A stretch of 11,160 nucleotides of DNA from Lentisphaeria bacterium. GTDB taxonomy: Bacteria; Verrucomicrobiota; Lentisphaeria; Victivallales; GWF2-50-93. Under the pieces are notes generated by a model. It made no database searches and was not told the DNA's origin. It saw only the letters and a program-made list of their open reading frames with translations. The stretch is taken from NCBI GenBank assembly GCA_020056205.1, contig JAGVIF010000073.1, positions 1 through 11,160 of the forward strand, in the 5' to 3' direction. Below, one piece after another: positions 451 through 10,686 of this stretch (within the stretch, counting starts at the first letter, position 1; each line of letters opens with the position of its first letter). Both the position numbers and the translations under genes were made by a program.

Positions 451-478
451 TTGAGTTTCCGAAAGATTGATGTATATT
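451..478 (+). promoter_or_regulatory. Probable sigma-70-type promoter for the csgG-like/folB pair
   Basis: TTGAGT (451-456) is separated by 16 nt from TATATT (473-478). These match the -35 consensus at 4 of 6 and the -10 consensus at 5 of 6 positions. Transcription would start near 485, leaving a leader of about 30 nt that contains the ribosome binding site at 503-507. This is consensus matching only. Confidence 0.4.
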
Positions 479-513
479 CCGGTTGCATATCAACAAAAAA
501 ACGGAGGTCTCTA

Positions 514-1446
514 ATGAAGAAATTATTAAAAATCATCGTCGCGCTCGCAATCGTTGCCGCGTTTTTCAAAACCTTGCCGGCTGTGGAACGCCCTACCCTT
601 GCCGTCATGCCGTTCATTATAGACCAGAGCCTTGAAATACGAATAGGAGACCTTGTCATAGCGCCGTCCGTAATCGAAAACGAATTCTCCGATCAGGTGC
701 TCCAAAACCTTGTAAAATCCAGAAAGTTCGATGTCCTCGAAAGGGCGAATGTGAAAAAGATAATGAACGAAAACAATCTCACGGAGTCCGACTACGCCAA
801 ACCGGGCGAGGCGGAAAGAATCGGAAAACTCCTTGTCGCCGACTACATCGTCGTCGGATACATAGACAGGCTGGAATTTATTCTTGAACAAAAAAATATT
901 CAGATTACCGGGGAGCGAAGCTTAAAACTCACCGGAACATTCAAGACACATTTCAGAGTGGTTGAAACAAAATCCGGAAAAATAGTCTGTGCGCAGAGCA
1001 TAGAAGAAAAACTTAAAAGCAGCGACATTCCCTTTCAGGAACGCAAAGATATGACCGGCGGCGATTTCAGGGACAGGCTTTTCAGCGCGGCGGCCGTAAA
1101 ATCATGCAACTATGTTCTTGAAGGGATATATCCGATAAAGATCGCCTCAATATCAGGGAACGAGCTTACTCTTAACCGCGGAGACGGCTCCGGACTGGTC
1201 AAGGGCGACCATCTCGATGTTTTCGAACTCGGCGACAGCGTCAAAGACCCTGACACCGGCGAAGTTCTCGGCTCTTCCGAAAGCAAAGTCGGGGAGATAG
1301 AGGTTACGGATGTCCTCCAAAAATTCTCAAAAGCGAAAATAATATCTTCCACAGGTATTATCACGGACGGAAGCATATGCCGCAGAATTAAATCTGTCAA
1401 AATTGAAGAAGCTCCGGCGACCCCAAGGGTCACGCCGGGATGGTAG
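514..1446 (+). CDS. CsgG-family secreted protein with FlgT-like C-terminal domain
   Basis: Predicted 310-residue exported envelope protein. Residues 1-23 form a Sec-type signal peptide (MKKLLK, then a hydrophobic run). Residues 27-205 resemble the CsgG/LpoB fold: RPTLAVMPF near 27-34, KFDVLERANVKKIMNENNL at 71-89, and VADYIVVGYI at 108-117. Residues 206-292 look like the C-terminal domain of FlgT-type proteins (NRGDGSGLVKGD, then DPDTGEVLG at 245-253, then VGEIEVTDV). Classical CsgG is an outer-membrane lipoprotein secretion pore, but here no lipobox cysteine follows the signal peptide, so a periplasmic or outer-membrane-associated role is more likely than a curli pore. ATG 514 is chosen because GGAGG (503-507) sits 6 nt upstream and the signal peptide begins there; an upstream in-frame ATG at 451 lacks both. 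No curli or flagellar genes are nearby. The family is fairly secure, the exact function is not. Confidence 0.8.
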   Translation: MKKLLKIIVALAIVAAFFKTLPAVERPTLAVMPFIIDQSLEIRIGDLVIAPSVIENEFSDQVLQNLVKSRKFDVLERANVKKIMNENNLTESDYAKPGEAERIGKLLVADYIVVGYIDRLEFILEQKNIQITGERSLKLTGTFKTHFRVVETKSGKIVCAQSIEEKLKSSDIPFQERKDMTGGDFRDRLFSAAAVKSCNYVLEGIYPIKIASISGNELTLNRGDGSGLVKGDHLDVFELGDSVKDPDTGEVLGSSESKVGEIEVTDVLQKFSKAKIISSTGIITDGSICRRIKSVKIEEAPATPRVTPGW

Positions 1447-1453
1447 AATTTGC

Positions 1454-1459
1454 GGTGAG
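1454..1459 (+). promoter_or_regulatory. Ribosome binding site that selects the folB start
   Basis: GGTGAG lies 7 nt before ATG 1467. An in-frame ATG at 1440 overlaps the previous gene's stop by 7 nt but would add nine residues not expected in the family. The site supports 1467 as the main start. Confidence 0.5.
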
Positions 1460-1466
1460 CGTCGTC

Positions 1467-1814
1467 ATGGACAAAATCATAATCAGAGATTTGAGGTTTG
1501 AGACATTTGTCGGAACCTTCCCAAAAGAAAAAAAAATCAAACAGGAAGTCATTCTCAACATCGAAATGGTTTGCGATTTTCGCAAAGCGTGCCTGAGCGA
1601 CAATCTTTCAGACACCGTTGATTATAAATTGGTTAAACAAAAAATCATAGTTCTTGTCGAAACCGGTAAATTCAACCTGATAGAAAAAATCGCCGAAGAC
1701 ACCGCTCGGATATGCCTGTCAACAAAGGGCGTGAACTCCGTAAAAGTCACAGTTGACAAACCCGGCGCCCTGACAAAAGCCCGCAGCACCGCCGTCCAAA
1801 TAGAAAGACCGTGA
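1467..1814 (+). CDS. folB: Dihydroneopterin aldolase
   Basis: Cytoplasmic enzyme of tetrahydrofolate synthesis that cleaves 7,8-dihydroneopterin to 6-hydroxymethyl-7,8-dihydropterin and glycolaldehyde, and often also epimerises the substrate. The 115-residue length is normal for this small octameric enzyme. From the start MDKIIIRDLRF, expected active-site residues fall at the positions I recall for the E. coli protein: Glu21 in FPKEKKIKQ, Tyr53 in TVDYKLV, Glu73 in NLIEKIAE, and Lys98 in DKPGA. The ending AVQIERP is also typical. It starts 20 nt after the csgG-like stop, so the two are probably cotranscribed, although no functional link is known. No folK or folP follows: a GTG overlapping the stop codon opens only a 16-codon frame. 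Confidence 0.92.
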   Translation: MDKIIIRDLRFETFVGTFPKEKKIKQEVILNIEMVCDFRKACLSDNLSDTVDYKLVKQKIIVLVETGKFNLIEKIAEDTARICLSTKGVNSVKVTVDKPGALTKARSTAVQIERP

Positions 1815-2026: not shown

Positions 2027-4288
2027 TCAGCATTTGCTGTATCCGCATGAAGCGCATTTCAGACAGTTTTCCTGACTGTATAATGACCATTCATTGCATT
2101 GCGGGCATATCATCATTTTTTTCTTTTTGCCGGAGGCGCTTGTGTTTGTTTTCTCTCCGTTTCCGTTTTTGGGCTTCATCATTCCGAGTTTGATGAGGTG
2201 TTTTTCTATTACAAAGCCGATATCGGCGGCAAGGGACGGCACGTATTTCCCCTCGGAGAAATATCCTCCGTTCGGGTCATATATGCTCTTTAACTCATCA
2301 ACAAGGAAACCCGGATCCGGTTCGCGCCTGAAGACCGCCGAGATAAGGCGCGTCATTGCCACTATCCAGCTGAAATGCTGGAGATTTTTGGTGTTTATAA
2401 ACAACTCGTAAGGACGGCGGCCGCCGTTCTCGATGATGTCATTTATGGTGAGATATAGCGCGTCCGGCGACAGAGGCGTTTTTATTTTGTAAGTTGTTCC
2501 TTCAAGTTCCCTCGGCCTAGGCAGATTTGAATCCACCAGTATCGGGGCTTTTTTTTCTTCCTCATTTTTTTTATCATCTTTTATGAGAACTCCGGATATG
2601 TGATCGGAAGGACGAAATGTAGTGCACCCTTTGAGTCCCTTGTCATAGGCCTTCATATAGATATTTTTAAAGTCCTGATAGGGGAAATTTTCCGGAACGT
2701 TGATGGTTTTTGAAATGGAACTGTCAACATATTTTTGCAGAACTGCCTGAATTTCAAGATGTTGATCCGGGTGAACGTCGTCGCTTGTGACGAAATAATC
2801 GGGAATTTTTTTGACTCCTTTGTGAGATTCAATAAATTTCATGTAAGCGTAGTCGCAGACATCCACCGTTTTCGTGTCGTGTTCATCTCCGTTCCTGATT
2901 TTTCTTTTGTAGTCCAGCGCAAAGAGAGGCTCCAGCCCGCTCGACACATTTCCCGCAAAAAGACTGATTGTCCCTGTCGGCGCTATTGAGATGAGATGCG
3001 AATTGCGAATTCCGCGCTTTGAGATCGAGTCCATGATTTCACCGGGCAAAACTGAGAGAAAAGCCGAAGAAGCGTATTTTCCCGCGTCAAAAAGAGGGAA
3101 GGAACCTTTTTCGCCGGCAAGAACGGATGACGCCTCGTATGCGGAATATGTGATTGTCCTCATTATGTCTTCGGCAATGTTTAGGGAGTCTTTCCCCCCG
3201 TATTTCAGCCCAAGAAATATCAGGGCGTCGGCAAGCCCTGTGATTCCGATGCCCATCCGCCGCTTGCGTTGAGCTTCAAGTTGTTGAGCTTTGAGCGGAT
3301 AGCCGCTTATTTCAATTATGTTGTCAAGGAAACGCACCGCTGTTTTTACGGTTTTTTCTATTGCGGACAAGTCAATCCCGGCGTTTTTTGAAAACGGCAT
3401 TTTTACAAATCTGCTGAGATTGATTGATCCCAGCAGGCATGCGCCATATGGGGGCAGAGGTTGTTCGCCGCAGGGGTTGGTCGCTTTTATCTCTTCGCAG
3501 TAGCGCAGGTTGTTCATTTCATTCACTTTGTCTATGAAAATCACACCTGGCTCCGCGAAATCATAAGTTGATTTCATTATCAATTCCCAGAGTTCAACGG
3601 CGTGAACTGTCTTGCGGACTTCCCCGTTGAAGACCAGTTCCCACATTTCGTTGTCTCTTACAGCCTGAACGAATTTGTCCGTAACCGCCACGGAAAGATT
3701 AAACATCTGGAGAGCGGAATTTTTTCTCTTCGCCGTTATGAAATCCATTATGTCGGGATGGTCGCAGCGCATGACCGCCATCTGAGCGCCTCTTCTCTGT
3801 CCGGCGCTCATTATCGTCCTGCATGTGGAGTCGAGCACCTGCATAAAGCTTATCGGACCCGATGAACTTGCCTCGCAACCCCTGATGTGCGAGCCGGCTG
3901 GTCTCAATGTCGAAAAATCGAAACCCACGCCTCCGCCTTGTTTCTGTGTTATCGCCGATTCCTTGACAGTATCGAATATTCCCTCTATGGAGTCCTCTAT
4001 TGTGTTCATCACATAGCAGTTGAACATAGTCGCCGCGCTGCGCTGTGTCCCGGCGTTGGAAATTATTCTTCCGCCGGGAAGGAAGCGGAAGTCTTCTAAA
4101 ATTTCGAGAAATTTCTTTTCCCACGCCGATGCGTTTTCTTCCGCGCCTGCCGCCGCCTTCGCGACTCTCCGCCACGTGTCCTCAACAGTCTTGTCTTCGG
4201 AAATTCCATGACCTCCGACGTATCTGTATTTCTTCCGCCAAATTTCATCTCCGACATCAAAATATTTCAATTCTTTATCTGCCCGCAT
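2027..4288 (-). CDS. nrdJ: Class II (adenosylcobalamin-dependent) ribonucleoside-diphosphate reductase
   Basis: Makes deoxyribonucleotides by thiyl-radical chemistry, generating the radical from adenosylcobalamin, so it works with or without oxygen. The 753-residue protein shows the catalytic set: Cys91 (FNCYV) and Cys284 (GACLLGSINL) as the reducing pair, and NPCGEQPL at 271-278 with radical Cys273, Asn271 and Glu275. Also visible are QKQGGGVGFDFS (115-126), SAGQRRGAQMAV (161-172) and the phosphate-binding APTGTIS (436-442). The C-terminal cysteine cluster (C728, C731, C742, C745, C748, C753) ends in CGYSKC, the arm that re-reduces the active site in class II enzymes. No N-terminal ATP-cone is present, so overall dATP activity control is probably absent. 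GGAGGG (4294-4299) lies 5 nt before the ATG. It starts 21 nt after the sugar permease gene, suggesting cotranscription. I saw no NrdR box or cobalamin riboswitch next to it. Confidence 0.95.
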   Translation of the reverse strand: MRADKELKYFDVGDEIWRKKYRYVGGHGISEDKTVEDTWRRVAKAAAGAEENASAWEKKFLEILEDFRFLPGGRIISNAGTQRSAATMFNCYVMNTIEDSIEGIFDTVKESAITQKQGGGVGFDFSTLRPAGSHIRGCEASSSGPISFMQVLDSTCRTIMSAGQRRGAQMAVMRCDHPDIMDFITAKRKNSALQMFNLSVAVTDKFVQAVRDNEMWELVFNGEVRKTVHAVELWELIMKSTYDFAEPGVIFIDKVNEMNNLRYCEEIKATNPCGEQPLPPYGACLLGSINLSRFVKMPFSKNAGIDLSAIEKTVKTAVRFLDNIIEISGYPLKAQQLEAQRKRRMGIGITGLADALIFLGLKYGGKDSLNIAEDIMRTITYSAYEASSVLAGEKGSFPLFDAGKYASSAFLSVLPGEIMDSISKRGIRNSHLISIAPTGTISLFAGNVSSGLEPLFALDYKRKIRNGDEHDTKTVDVCDYAYMKFIESHKGVKKIPDYFVTSDDVHPDQHLEIQAVLQKYVDSSISKTINVPENFPYQDFKNIYMKAYDKGLKGCTTFRPSDHISGVLIKDDKKNEEEKKAPILVDSNLPRPRELEGTTYKIKTPLSPDALYLTINDIIENGGRRPYELFINTKNLQHFSWIVAMTRLISAVFRREPDPGFLVDELKSIYDPNGGYFSEGKYVPSLAADIGFVIEKHLIKLGMMKPKNGNGEKTNTSASGKKKKMMICPQCNEWSLYSQENCLKCASCGYSKC

Positions 4289-4309: not shown

Positions 4310-6223
4310 TTATTTTTCCACCGGCACGACTATTCCCTTCATAATCACGTTTTGGCAGAGTAGGAATATTATGAATGTTGGGATAGTGGCGAGTATGAGG
4401 GCTGAGAATATGACACCTTGTCCGGCGCTTCGCTGGAGTTGATAGAGCCACGGCATTATTGTCCACATTTCCTTCTTTTGACAGACGAGCAGCGCCATCA
4501 TGAAATTGGAATATGCCTGAGTGAATGCCTGGAGAGCGATGACCGCGAGTATCGGTTTGCTTAGGGTCATTGTTATCTGGAAGAATATTCTTACTTCCGA
4601 CGCTCCGTCTATGGCGGCGCTTTCATATAGTTCCTGCGGAAGGGAGTCGAAGAATCCTTTGAGCAGGAATATCGAGTACCCGCTTGCAACTCCCGGCAAT
4701 ATAAGAGCCCAGAAGCTGTTCAAGAGATTGAATTCTCTTAGCATCAGGAACATAGGTATTTGTGTTACCATCGGCGGAAAAGCCATTGTCAGCATCAGGA
4801 AAAGGAGTACTTTGTATGTTGATGGCGGCTTGAACCTGCTGAGCGCATATGCTGCGAGCGGATTAAATATCAGTGCGCAAAGGACTGAGAGCGAACAATA
4901 TATCACGGTGTTGATCAGCGCATTTCCGTGCAAAGCTATGTAGTCAAGAGCGGTTATAAAATTCCGCGTTGAGAAATCCTTCTTTATTGTGTTTTTATTT
5001 TTTATGAAATCAAAATAAATCATATCCTCCTGCGGGGTTCTCACCAAATTCCAATCCGCGAAATTCGTTGAAAGAGCCGAATTCATTTTTTCGATGGAAG
5101 CGTACTTTTCTTTTAAATGCGCGGCGAAAAGAAAATCTATTCCCATTATTGATATTGTCTCGGGCGGAGGGGTATGATGTTTCCCGCTAGCAGGGTCGTT
5201 CCACCCCTGAATGAAACTGTCCCAATCCGAGCAAACGATGCCTGTCCGTTTAGACACATCGTCAACGATTGGGATTTCCGTGAACGCCGCATATGAAGCC
5301 GCGTATTTCCTGTTCAGGGCATTTATATCGTTGGAATATTTTGCCGACAGAAATTCGCGGTATAATTTTTCCGCGGACATGTCAATTCTTATCCAGAGAA
5401 GATTCAATATTGATTTTGATAAGACGAGCCAATCCTCCTGCGTCTGTTTCGGGGCATTTGCCGGAAATCGTTCGGGGAGAACGAGTTCATCATACGATTT
5501 GTAGTTGGTTTCGTGCGAACTGTTGTAATTCGCGATGTCGCTGGTGTATTGGCCTTTCAGGTATTGCGCACAAAAATTGCGTATTGACGGATAGTAGCGT
5601 GATTCGTAGGGTTGTTTTTTCTTAAATTCGTATCTAAAATCTCTGAAAGGCGATGAGTCGAGGGCGGCGCTTTTCAGGAGAAAGTTTTCCGATATGAGAT
5701 AGAAATCATTCCACGAATCGAAGATCGTGCCGAAACGGTTGTTAAATTCCCTGATATTTCCGTTGGACAGGGCGATGGCTTCATCGCGGAACTTTCTCAG
5801 GTTCTTTGGGATTACGCCCGTTGTGACAGGAGCCTGGATGTATGATATTTCATAATAGTACTGAGGAAAATTCTTTTTTCCCACGAAAGCAAGCCATTCA
5901 TCGGCAAAGGTTTTATTGGTTTTTTGCGGCATATCAAGACTCCTGAACGTCGGGATGTTTGAGGAGGATGAGATTTGATACATGCCAAGGCTCTCATTGA
6001 AAAAAGCCTCAACGTGCTTCCTATACAGGGCGTCGTCGTTGATGAGAAATGTCGGCACGATAACGGCGTCGGGGGTATCAACGGCGCTCTTTGTTGTTCC
6101 TGATATCATCAGAATAAAAGGATAAAGCATGGATACCGCGCCTACGCACAGCGCAATATACATAGAGGCTATGAGAGCCCTGACCCTCAGCGATTTTGCT
6201 CCGATTTTTGATATTATTGCCAT
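4310..6223 (-). CDS. MalG-type carbohydrate ABC permease with large repeat-bearing external insert
   Basis: Inner-membrane subunit of a sugar importer (CUT1 type). The core is typical MalG: TM1 at about 15-41, then from about 430 to the end the remaining helices, with the ATPase-contacting EAA loop ELYESAAIDGAS at 531-542 and a MalG-like start to the core (ALINTVIY near 435). MalG proteins are usually about 280-300 residues; this one has 637 because residues about 42-425 are inserted between TM1 and TM2, which faces outside the membrane. The insert contains degenerate repeats spaced 70-77 residues, with a consensus like kY..sI..lN...tnY.s...I (Asn161, Asn234, Asn304, Asn381), plus a weaker copy near 66-98. 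This resembles helical segments I know from GH42-type proteins. The start lies 7 nt after the fusion gene's stop; the nearest ribosome-binding-like AGGAAAGG is 12 nt upstream, so translational coupling is likely. No frameshift is evident. Confidence 0.88.
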   Translation of the reverse strand: MAIISKIGAKSLRVRALIASMYIALCVGAVSMLYPFILMISGTTKSAVDTPDAVIVPTFLINDDALYRKHVEAFFNESLGMYQISSSSNIPTFRSLDMPQKTNKTFADEWLAFVGKKNFPQYYYEISYIQAPVTTGVIPKNLRKFRDEAIALSNGNIREFNNRFGTIFDSWNDFYLISENFLLKSAALDSSPFRDFRYEFKKKQPYESRYYPSIRNFCAQYLKGQYTSDIANYNSSHETNYKSYDELVLPERFPANAPKQTQEDWLVLSKSILNLLWIRIDMSAEKLYREFLSAKYSNDINALNRKYAASYAAFTEIPIVDDVSKRTGIVCSDWDSFIQGWNDPASGKHHTPPPETISIMGIDFLFAAHLKEKYASIEKMNSALSTNFADWNLVRTPQEDMIYFDFIKNKNTIKKDFSTRNFITALDYIALHGNALINTVIYCSLSVLCALIFNPLAAYALSRFKPPSTYKVLLFLMLTMAFPPMVTQIPMFLMLREFNLLNSFWALILPGVASGYSIFLLKGFFDSLPQELYESAAIDGASEVRIFFQITMTLSKPILAVIALQAFTQAYSNFMMALLVCQKKEMWTIMPWLYQLQRSAGQGVIFSALILATIPTFIIFLLCQNVIMKGIVVPVEK

Positions 6224-6230
6224 TGTTGTG

Positions 6231-8981
6231 TCAAGCCTTTCCTGCGGCTTTGAATTCCACTCGAGACAGCATTTTAAGCTGATGCATTGTAAATCCTATC
6301 ATCATGAACCCGAGCACCCATGCCATTGCGGTGGCTGGGCCGAATTGTAAATTGGTGAAGGCGCGGAACCATATTTGGAGGTCGGCGACTTCGGTGTTGT
6401 ATCCGCCGCCGGTCATTACGAGAATACCGCTTGCCGAATACCATGAGGCGATAAAGACACCTATAAAATTGATGACGATGAGGGCTTTGAGAGTGGGAAA
6501 TACGACGAAAAGTATTTGGTCTATGAATCCTGCCCCGTCTATTTCGGCGGCCTCGTAGTAGTCGTCCGGAATTCCTTTCAACGCGGCCAGATATATCAGG
6601 CAGCCCGGCCCCATTCCCGCCCAAACCATTGGGATTACGCAGGAAAGCATGGCCGTATCGGTGTCTTGTATCCATCTGACCGATTCCGGGTAAAAGGAGA
6701 AAAGGCGGTAAGGAATTTTCATGATTGAAGCCGAGAAAATTTCTCCCGACGGGAACAGCGTCGGCGATGCGGCTCCGAGGCAGGTGGCAAAAAGAATAAT
6801 AGCTGCAATTAGGAAGAGGCTTGAGCCAAAGAACATCTCGTTTAGATAAAGCCTTCTCGCAAACATAAATGCAAGGACGGCAAGCAGTATTCCGATTGCG
6901 ATGAATCCTATTGCCGGAATTCTCATCACTATAACATTTAGCATTCCGTATTCAGACTTGTCGAAGAATTGTTTCCATAACAGTACTGTCACAATCCCTG
7001 TTATGACGGCCGGCAGATAGTAAATGGTTCTGAAAAGCACCTTGCCTTTGGGAATTTCCTGGAGAAGTATCGCCAGTATTATAGGCGGCAGAAAAGTCAA
7101 TGATATGACTAACGTGCTGTATCTTAAGGAGTTCCATACGGTGTTCCACCAGTATGAGTTATATAGCAGATCCCCGAAGTTATCTATTCCCACGAAGGTT
7201 GATTTTCCTATCAGCTTATAATCGTAAAATGCCATGATTGAGCCCCTGAACAATGGAAGATACTGCCAAATAAAAATTGACAAAACTGCGGGAATTAAGA
7301 TTATGTATGCCCATCTGTATTTGAAGAAACCCCATTTTTCCGCGCTCTTTCCATCAACGACAGGGGTTTTGGGTGTAAATGCGTTGAGAATTCTTCTTAC
7401 GACAAAAGAGAACGCAATTATTATGCATATAATTACAGCCGCGGCCGATATTCTTCTTTTTACCCTTTCGGCGTGAGGGACTATTCCTATCATTTCTTCG
7501 TTGGCCCTGCCGCAGGCTTTTACGAGCAAACCGCGCATCGCTTCAATCCTTTTGTCGTAATTGCCGGGAAGTTTATTGTTGAGGCTCATGTCTTCGGCTT
7601 CCTGTATCGGAAACGTCATCATGTCGTATGCGATATTGCTGTTTTTCCCGTATGGTTCCGGACGTCCGGTCTCTATCGCGATCTTAAATGTGTCGCTCCA
7701 GCCTTTCGGGGCGAGCTTTTCCACTTCAGGATAGCCGAATTTTCTGAGATTTTTGGGGCTCATAAACTGACCAAGCCCTCCCTCTACCATTATTTTCATT
7801 TTGAGTGACATCGCCTCGTCCGAATCGTAGAACTTCATATACTCCCACGCGGCGTCGCGGACGGCGGAATCTTTTATCTGCGAGTATATTCCCATCATTC
7901 TGCTGTTGAGTTCTCCTCCTCTGTTGCCGCCGGGCCCGATTGGAACAGGCGCCATTCCGGTCACATCCGAATTAATTCTCGCCAGTACATTTTCTTCAAT
8001 GTAGGCAAATTGCATTCCGATAAGGCCTTGTTCCCATTTAACGGAGCTGCCAGGGTCCTTTGTGGCGTATCCTCTTCTGACCTTCCCGTTCTTGTCAGTC
8101 CATTTTTCGGTATTCAGCCGCGTGTAAAATTCGAGCGCCTTCGCGCCCGCCTCGGAATCAAATATACAACTCCACTGATTGGCGTTTTCGTTATAGGACA
8201 TGACTTCGCCGCCAGCCGACCACAGGAAGGTTACCCAGTGCCATGATTCGTGTTTTCCTGAACCGAACACGGCTCCGTATGTTCCTTTTTTCGGATCGGT
8301 GAGTTTTTTGGCGGCGTCATACATTTTGTCCCATGTCCAGTTATTATCAGGCGGCGGAATTTTATTGAGTTCAAAAAGGTCTTTTCTGTAGAGGAGGACT
8401 TTTCCAATTGCGCCGCCGTAAGGCAAAGCCCATACATGTTCAGCCCCTTCCGGCCCTTTTCGTTTTATCACCGGCCAGAGCTTGGGGTGGATTCTTTCCG
8501 AGAGTTCCGCCTCAGACATTTCGGATAAATACATATCATCTTTATTGTCAAGAGGATATAAAAAATTATTAAAAATGTAGTTATAAGATTTTCTGAAGTT
8601 TATGTAGAGGACATCCGGCGCTGTTCCGCCTGCTATTCCGAGGAGATCGAGTTCAACGCCTTCGACATTTATTCCGGTGAACTGTTCAAGCTCTATTTCG
8701 ACTTTGTCCCAATTGTATTTGCCGTATCTTGCCGGATTGTTCTTATATTTTTCTTTGTATTTCGCCGCAAATATCTCAGGGAAGCGTTTCACAAACAGAT
8801 TGACGCCGGCTACTTCGGCTCTGGAAAAAGTGTCAGTCATTGATGGAGAGGGTAACTGCCATATTTTCAGGTGTATGACGGTCTTGTCGTCCTTATTTTC
8901 AATCCAGCCGGCGGAAAGATTGATGGCGGAGAACGTTATTACGCATGCCAGTATTAAATTTAAGTATTTGTTCTTTGTCAT
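6231..8981 (-). CDS. Fused sugar-binding protein and MalF-type ABC permease
   Basis: A 916-residue fusion. Residues 1-25 are a signal peptide without a lipobox. Residues about 35-500 are a family 1 extracellular solute-binding protein for sugars (LGIAGGTAPDVLYINF at 113-128, WALPYGGAIGKVLLYRKDLF at 184-203, NNWTWDKMYDAAKKL at 213-227). A linking helix (about 511-529) re-enters the membrane, a short cytoplasmic loop follows, then a MalF-like permease from about 555: IDNFGDLL (599-606), RTIYYLPAVITGIV (651-664), and the EAA loop YYEAAEIDGAG (808-818), which binds the ATPase. The topology is self-consistent, with the binding domain outside. Two extra helices (about 690-708 and 717-735) lie between the usual third and fourth core helices. 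It is first in the operon with the MalG-like subunit and nrdJ. No Shine-Dalgarno precedes the ATG; TATAAAT sits a few bases upstream. The substrate is unknown, probably an oligosaccharide. Confidence 0.9.
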   Translation of the reverse strand: MTKNKYLNLILACVITFSAINLSAGWIENKDDKTVIHLKIWQLPSPSMTDTFSRAEVAGVNLFVKRFPEIFAAKYKEKYKNNPARYGKYNWDKVEIELEQFTGINVEGVELDLLGIAGGTAPDVLYINFRKSYNYIFNNFLYPLDNKDDMYLSEMSEAELSERIHPKLWPVIKRKGPEGAEHVWALPYGGAIGKVLLYRKDLFELNKIPPPDNNWTWDKMYDAAKKLTDPKKGTYGAVFGSGKHESWHWVTFLWSAGGEVMSYNENANQWSCIFDSEAGAKALEFYTRLNTEKWTDKNGKVRRGYATKDPGSSVKWEQGLIGMQFAYIEENVLARINSDVTGMAPVPIGPGGNRGGELNSRMMGIYSQIKDSAVRDAAWEYMKFYDSDEAMSLKMKIMVEGGLGQFMSPKNLRKFGYPEVEKLAPKGWSDTFKIAIETGRPEPYGKNSNIAYDMMTFPIQEAEDMSLNNKLPGNYDKRIEAMRGLLVKACGRANEEMIGIVPHAERVKRRISAAAVIICIIIAFSFVVRRILNAFTPKTPVVDGKSAEKWGFFKYRWAYIILIPAVLSIFIWQYLPLFRGSIMAFYDYKLIGKSTFVGIDNFGDLLYNSYWWNTVWNSLRYSTLVISLTFLPPIILAILLQEIPKGKVLFRTIYYLPAVITGIVTVLLWKQFFDKSEYGMLNVIVMRIPAIGFIAIGILLAVLAFMFARRLYLNEMFFGSSLFLIAAIILFATCLGAASPTLFPSGEIFSASIMKIPYRLFSFYPESVRWIQDTDTAMLSCVIPMVWAGMGPGCLIYLAALKGIPDDYYEAAEIDGAGFIDQILFVVFPTLKALIVINFIGVFIASWYSASGILVMTGGGYNTEVADLQIWFRAFTNLQFGPATAMAWVLGFMMIGFTMHQLKMLSRVEFKAAGKA

Positions 8982-9750: not shown

Positions 9751-10686
9751 TCAATTTGGGAATTGACCGGAATTGTATTTTGTTTTAAAAAAATCAATTG
9801 TATTATTGAGTCCTATCTCGAAATCTGACGACGGTTCAAATCCACAGGACAGCAGTTTTTTTATTGACGCGAGAGAGTGTTTTATTTCGCCTGGGCGTTC
9901 AGGCATGTGTATTACTTTCGAGTTTGAACCTGTCTGTTTCAGAATTTTTCCGACTATGTCGTTGATAGTATTTTTCTTTCCGTATGCGACATTGAAGACG
10001 CCGCCCGCCGAGTTTTGAGACATAAACACATTTGCGGCGGCCACGTCTTTGACGTAGACAAAGTCTCTTGTCTGTTCTCCATCCCCATAAATAATTATTG
10101 GCTCATTTTTTACCGCGCGGGAAACGAATATCGGGATGGCGGCGGCGTAAGGGCTTTTGGGGTCTTGCCTCGCCCCGAAAACATTAAAATATCTCAGGCT
10201 TACGGTGTTCAGCCTTTTTTCCCTTGCGAACATGCCGCAATAATATTCCCCGTCGAGTTTTGTTATGGCGTAAGGGCTGAGCGGGCCAGGAGCCATATCC
10301 TCCGTTTTAGGCGATTCGGGATTCTCCCCATACACGGCGGCCGATGTGCAGAAGCACAGTTTCTTCACTTTCGCGGCGGCGGCTTCTTCAAGAACAACCA
10401 GTGTTCCCTCAGTGTTTACCCTGACATACTCAAGCGGTTTTTCCATGGATTCGACCACGCTTATCATAGCGGCCATATGAAAAACGTAGTCCGCGTTTTT
10501 CACCGCCTTTCGGACAATATTTCTGTCTGTTATGTCTCCTTCTATAAACTCATGTTTCAGTCCGCCGATGTTTTCCCTCTTCCCTGTTTTGAGGTTATCA
10601 AGGACAGTCACATCCGCCTTTCCGCTAAAGTGTTCCACGAGATGACTTCCGATAAATCCTGCCCCTCCCGTGATTAGTATTTTCAT
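9751..10686 (-). CDS. UDP-hexose / UDP-N-acetylhexosamine 4-epimerase, GalE/WbpP type
   Basis: Extended short-chain dehydrogenase of 311 residues, expected in the cytoplasm. It uses bound NAD to invert C4 of a UDP-sugar (UDP-Glc/UDP-Gal and/or UDP-GlcNAc/UDP-GalNAc). The Rossmann NAD site is TGGAGFIGSH at 6-15; the catalytic set is Ser115 (CTSAAVYG), Tyr139 and Lys143 (SPYAITK). RYFNVFGARQDP (165-176) and YAAAIPIFV (180-188) resemble WbpP-type UDP-HexNAc epimerases, and GDGEQTRDFVYVKDV (201-215) is typical of the family. GGGGGAG (10695-10701) sits 8 nt before the ATG. The gene begins 90 nt after a NahK-like kinase, which supports amino-sugar substrates. Related dehydratases or other epimerases of the same superfamily cannot be fully excluded, so no gene symbol is assigned. 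Confidence 0.85.
   Translation of the reverse strand: MKILITGGAGFIGSHLVEHFSGKADVTVLDNLKTGKRENIGGLKHEFIEGDITDRNIVRKAVKNADYVFHMAAMISVVESMEKPLEYVRVNTEGTLVVLEEAAAAKVKKLCFCTSAAVYGENPESPKTEDMAPGPLSPYAITKLDGEYYCGMFAREKRLNTVSLRYFNVFGARQDPKSPYAAAIPIFVSRAVKNEPIIIYGDGEQTRDFVYVKDVAAANVFMSQNSAGGVFNVAYGKKNTINDIVGKILKQTGSNSKVIHMPERPGEIKHSLASIKKLLSCGFEPSSDFEIGLNNTIDFFKTKYNSGQFPN

Follow-up and report, generated by a model that had tools for sequence, protein, structure and literature searches.

A repeated helical segment resembling part of glycosidases in the external loop of a MalG-type permease paired with a binding protein-MalF fusion

We analyzed an 11,160-nucleotide stretch of a Lentisphaeria bacterium genome (contig JAGVIF010000073.1 of assembly GCA_020056205.1, hereafter the window) and describe a MalG-type ATP-binding cassette (ABC) sugar permease whose loop between transmembrane helices 1 and 2 (TM1 and TM2) consists of five units of one ~65-residue three-helix pattern. 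Computation shows that the unit resembles one segment of GH42/GH35/GH14/GH50-type glycosidases (GH, glycoside hydrolase), and that the insert is coupled to fusions of a solute-binding protein (SBP) with a MalF-type permease. Most probably, the array would serve the tethered binding protein as a docking scaffold. Permeases scoring for both PF00528 and PF02449 already exist in machine records, and no description of the repeat domain turned up in literature searches, as judged from their listings; new here is a glycosidase-segment-like repeat domain on an already known transporter type. The array is an example of a new extracellular domain seemingly built by repeating an enzyme piece, and the pair lends itself as a natural test of the way in which a binding protein on a tether reaches its transporter.

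The MalG loop is an array of helical units

The permease matches BPD_transp_1 (PF00528) at 48.4 bits against a cut-off of 26.4, where its C-terminal part is MalG-type and the best matches of its core among solved structures are SugB, AlgM2 and MalG. It has the six-membrane-helix fold of MalG (CUT1-like). The curated equivalogs UgpE, MalG and GlcU score 74.8, 61.9 and 55.2 bits, all below their cut-offs of 297, 261 and 340; judged by sequence, the permease is of the same fold family and is none of these named systems. A first-pass annotation made from the sequence alone had described about 385 external residues between TM1 and TM2. Hydropathy agrees, placing a first hydrophobic stretch at 12-44 and a second at 433-462, with 388 non-membrane residues (45-432) separating them. 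The features of the permease, its partner and the neighboring genes are collected in Table 1.

Table 1. Features of the window
Feature	Residues	Window positions	Strand	Basis
MalG-type ABC sugar permease with repeat insert, 637 residues		4310-6223	minus	Open reading frame (ORF) list
TM1	12-44	6092-6190	minus	Hydropathy; predicted helix 12-42 (AlphaFold2)
External insert, TM1-TM2	45-432	4928-6091	minus	Hydropathy and AlphaFold2
Unit 1, degenerate, Asn lost	63-116	5876-6037	minus	Predicted helices 63-74, 79-86, 104-116
Unit 2, N161	140-203	5615-5806	minus	Repeat HMM 35.5 bits; predicted helices 140-152, 157-164, 192-203
Unit 3, N234	212-272	5408-5590	minus	Repeat HMM 39.1 bits; predicted helices 214-226, 230-237, 259-272
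Unit 4, N304	277-339	5207-5395	minus	Predicted helices 282-295, 300-307, 329-339
Unit 5, N381	357-408	5000-5155	minus	Repeat HMM 45.3 bits; predicted helices 362-374, 377-384, 398-408
Permease core, TM2-TM6	433-637	4313-4927	minus	Pfam, solved-structure matches, hydropathy
Partner gene, SBP fused to MalF-type permease, 916 residues		6231-8981	minus	ORF and Pfam
Tethered solute-binding domain of partner	29-505	7467-8897	minus	Pfam, structure matches, hydropathy
Partner membrane anchor, binding domain to MalF part	506-537	7371-7466	minus	Hydropathy
Protein without NCBIfam match		451-1446		
FolB-type protein		1440-1814		NCBIfam
B12-dependent ribonucleotide reductase		2027-4288		NCBIfam
NAD-dependent epimerase-like protein		9751-10686		NCBIfam

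The five degenerate repeats proposed for this loop are borne out by profile self-comparison, structure prediction and varying copy number. Profile self-comparison was performed with hhalign on overlapping 60-column windows of alignment A1 at a step of 10. Inside the insert, 142 of the 406 pairs of windows score above 90% probability (top score 78.8), versus 0/406 for reversed columns (best 19.2) and 0/406 for permuted columns (best 16.7), confirming the repeats. Four of the 770 native pairs that involve the membrane core also exceed this value. Unit 3 aligns to unit 4 with a probability of 98.9.

AlphaFold2 predicts five helix triplets in the insert of the whole permease (predicted local distance difference test, pLDDT, 85.4), and prediction of residues 42-424 alone likewise supports repeated helical units, returning five triplets with a pLDDT of 94.5 and a predicted template modelling score of 0.90. 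Each triplet comprises a long helix, a short 8-residue helix and a third helix of about 11-14 residues, where the Asn of units 2-5 sits on the short helix. These anchor asparagines, N161, N234, N304 and N381, are positioned as first annotated, with spacings of 73, 70 and 77 residues, and are invariant across 73 aligned permease sequences. The weaker unit suggested at residues 66-98 is seen in the predicted structure, but a repeat hidden Markov model (HMM) constructed from units 2-5 detects those four alone in the window's permease and misses unit 1. Inspection of the same 73 sequences reveals invariant Trp residues in the insert at positions 110, 171, 265, 277 and 334. Three of these (W110, W265 and W334) agree with an aromatic helix upstream of each unit, as had been claimed; the helices in question are, however, the third helices of the preceding units, and that of unit 2 lacks Trp.

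To define copy number, the best 120 of 1201 database hits were combined with the window's own permease (n = 121), the partner protein was added as a negative (122 proteins), and units were counted with the repeat HMM at E<0.01. Four units are present in 118 permeases, three in one, five in P0042 and six in P0031, with zero in the partner. That is to say, an array first described as unusual is not a one-off, where every one of these 121 permeases has at least three units. In P0042, one whole unit has been duplicated, and its two copies are identical at 31 aligned positions. The permease ORFs of loci L001-L027 contain three to six units, except for L014 (two units, cut by a contig end) and L024 (one), and a subfamily of 670-694 residues has three. 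Unit identity is 0.46 for equivalent positions across proteins versus 0.22 between units inside one protein; because equivalent units match better across proteins than do units within one protein, the array is old. It is less conserved than the permease core. Within the 670-694-residue subfamily, L023 and L025-L027 show a seeming second insertion of ~45-50 residues, located around query residue 500 in the core of the permease.

Array permeases are paired with SBP-MalF fusions

The gene directly upstream of the repeat-bearing permease joins a binding protein covalently to a permease subunit within one 916-residue ORF, with Pfam matches to SBP_bac_1 at residues 115-391 (E 5.2e-21) and BPD_transp_1 at 694-897 (E 7.1e-09). 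The fused SBP resembles sugar-binding SBPs among solved structures. Hydropathy gives no P2-like loop in the MalF part of the partner, where at most 39 residues separate successive hydrophobic segments beyond the anchor.

Among relatives at the order level, 36 places appeared to carry the insert, 25 of which were hand-picked for inspection of their surroundings; L123 is cut upstream, leaving 24 loci. In all 24 of them (20 + 4), the gene directly upstream encodes an SBP-MalF fusion of 832-932 residues; L088, which shows a single unit only, is among them. Ordinary MalG genes of these relatives have a fusion partner in 0 of 20 cases, their partners being 292-516 residues long. A Verrucomicrobia contig (L003) also carries the permease and fusion pair. 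The sample was extended to the phylum with 18 further loci chosen by core similarity, for which 53 of the 194 genomes gave matches at E<=1e-40; here the fusion is directly upstream in only nine. Of the remainder, one has the fusion one helicase gene away (L140), six lack an adjoining fusion (L142, L144, L146, L147, L155 and L156) and two are cut by contig ends. Several distant members of this sample have one unit by sequence, and L144 has none. When the six genomes with a lone permease were searched whole, five had a fusion-sized relative elsewhere, with none in G070. The insert and the SBP co-diverge, with a partial r of 0.62 across 25 pairs (permutation test, 0 of 2000).

At L115:7216-9864, an SBP-MalF fusion has no adjoining permease gene, and the same genome has a complete pair at L085. 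The pair at L140 is split, because a PIF1-like helicase gene (L140:2277-4406) intervenes between the fusion and the array permease. The fusion ORF at L149:725-5233 is 1502 residues long, with ~600 extra N-terminal residues without a Pfam match, and its start may have been called too early.

A second, apparently unrelated insert shares the pairing

At L116:5497-7251 (genome G032), a 584-residue MalG with an insert of ~320 residues adjoins an SBP_bac_1-MalF fusion; this MalG shows no array unit, and the permease is its sole Pfam domain. Four relatives in other genomes (L134-L137) share this gene arrangement, such that MalG proteins of this group (553-611 residues) are paired with an SBP-MalF fusion in 5 of 5 loci. 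The next relatives with shorter loops, L138 and L139 (385-393 residues), have a separate MalF of 303-307 residues. The group resembles the array permease in the place of its insert and in its pairing. In contrast to the window's permease, no array unit is detected in it, and the insert has no Pfam domain in the three members scanned. Two lineages with apparently different inserts are each paired with a fusion; therefore, a large MalG loop domain and a tethered SBP go together. Their joint occurrence in two lineages is the strongest hint at function.

The unit resembles a segment of glycoside hydrolases

A profile of the unit was compared with PDB sequences, where 31 of 31 matches at E<0.01 are glycoside hydrolases or a related glucosyltransferase. 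The structural matches listed by VIA, 27 in number, are without exception carbohydrate-active enzymes of this kind; the top three superpose on one unit at 1.7-2.5 Å across 63-66 residues, and unit 3 is matched to GH14/GH50 segments. In the reverse direction, a profile from 13 GH segments matches 121 of 122 proteins, versus 0/122 when reversed and 0/122 when shuffled, and the Pfam GH42 model (PF02449) matches 72 of the 73 aligned permeases. The likeness to GH42 helices noted in the first-pass annotation is thereby substantiated. That it reflects convergence on a short helix-turn-helix motif as opposed to descent is unlikely, given that the profile picks up no PDB sequences at E<0.01 other than carbohydrate-active enzymes and that the GH42 model finds permeases.

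GH42 beta-galactosidases and GH35, GH14, GH50 and GH167 enzymes each contain one copy of the array unit. Their single copy sits within a barrel enzyme, whereas the permease has tandem copies and no predicted barrel. A fragment of a glycosidase barrel may have been taken into the permease loop and multiplied.

Proposed role of the array

We favor, with a probability of roughly 0.55, a MalFG-type importer in which the SBP is fused to the MalF half and the first periplasmic loop of MalG, with its array of about five units, acts as a docking scaffold. The tethered binding protein would have to reach the MalF/MalG entrance in the correct orientation, and contact between the array and the partner's binding domain is favored by the pairing with SBP-MalF fusions. 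For MalF of E. coli, an interaction of the P2 loop with the binding protein has been reported. In contrast to MalFGK2, where P2 belongs to MalF, the insert described here lies between TM1 and TM2 of MalG, is made of repeats and accompanies an SBP fused to the MalF half. The MalG-side array would then fill the role of the P2 loop, which is not seen in the partner. The substrate-binding domains of OpuA are fused to the permease. Two reports on such ABC importers, to which GlnPQ also belongs, describe a covalent link between the binding domain and a permease subunit (PMC8025302, PMC11065425). The window's importer shares this covalent link; OpuA and GlnPQ are, however, glycine-betaine and amino-acid systems, whereas the window's pair combines an SBP_bac_1 and MalF fusion with an array on the other permease subunit. 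A more tentative proposal, with somewhat less than even odds, is that a barrel fragment was multiplied into a receptor platform for the tethered SBP in the MalG loop, and that in the other MalG lineage an unrelated domain arose in the loop to serve the same end. If true, a tethered binding protein brings selection for a scaffold in the loop of the opposite permease subunit.

The array could instead form a glycan-contacting surface, where the GH-like units would retain oligo- or polysaccharide chains or direct them toward the binding protein, in the manner of a carbohydrate-binding module. The occurrence of the unit elsewhere in carbohydrate-active enzymes, the five invariant Trp residues and the match of the fused SBP to solved sugar-binding SBPs are consistent with such a surface. 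We nonetheless regard it as doubtful: the unit corresponds to one helical segment of these enzymes and not to a full active-site cleft, and the residues common to both settings (Leu, Asn and Gly-Thr) appear to define the fold. Somewhat further from probable is a spacer or anchor that makes the loop more rigid or extends to a third partner such as the cell wall, an outer-membrane porin or an exo-enzyme, with the coupling to SBP fusions a matter of lineage history. Variable copy number, conservation below that of the core and the lack of a pathway common to 65 neighbor genes fit this explanation, but the coupling recurs with an apparently unrelated insert and a fusion is present elsewhere in five of six genomes with a lone permease.

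A degenerate glycosidase that still cleaves sugar before uptake is highly improbable: although the window's permease exceeds the PF02449 cut-off (23.8 versus 21 bits) and nearly all aligned permeases match this model, the match at residues 366-400, inside unit 5, spans only profile positions 154-193 of 376, and the predicted insert is a set of five alike helical units with a few strands of <=3 residues each, not the eight strands of a catalytic (beta/alpha)8 barrel. Because no barrel is predicted, the insert is not a GH42-type enzyme. The trimerization domain PF08532 is not among the permease Pfam matches up to E=1, and no Glu is among the invariant insert residues in the 73 sequences, though in unit 1 both E72 and E77 come close to invariance. 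Most of the best 120 of 1201 database hits bear the Glyco_hydro_42 Pfam label, which calls for caution in annotation: these permeases score as Glyco_hydro_42 yet are not beta-galactosidases.

Genomic context

The window is contig 207 of 597 in a 2.89 Mb assembly that is 81% complete. OB_MalK was not found in this incomplete genome and turned up in all nine others of the 10 genomes searched; TOBE_2 was likewise not found in it, with controls positive in 13 of 14. Because the assembly is 81% complete, a MalK-type ATPase may simply be missing from it. In five other genomes (G001:C248, G002:C273, G005:C77:157416-159419, G006:C40 and G007:C40), the open frames holding the MalF-like match and those holding the MalG-like match have the same length (675-697 residues), which suggests, from sequence matches, single-chain MalF-MalG fusions.
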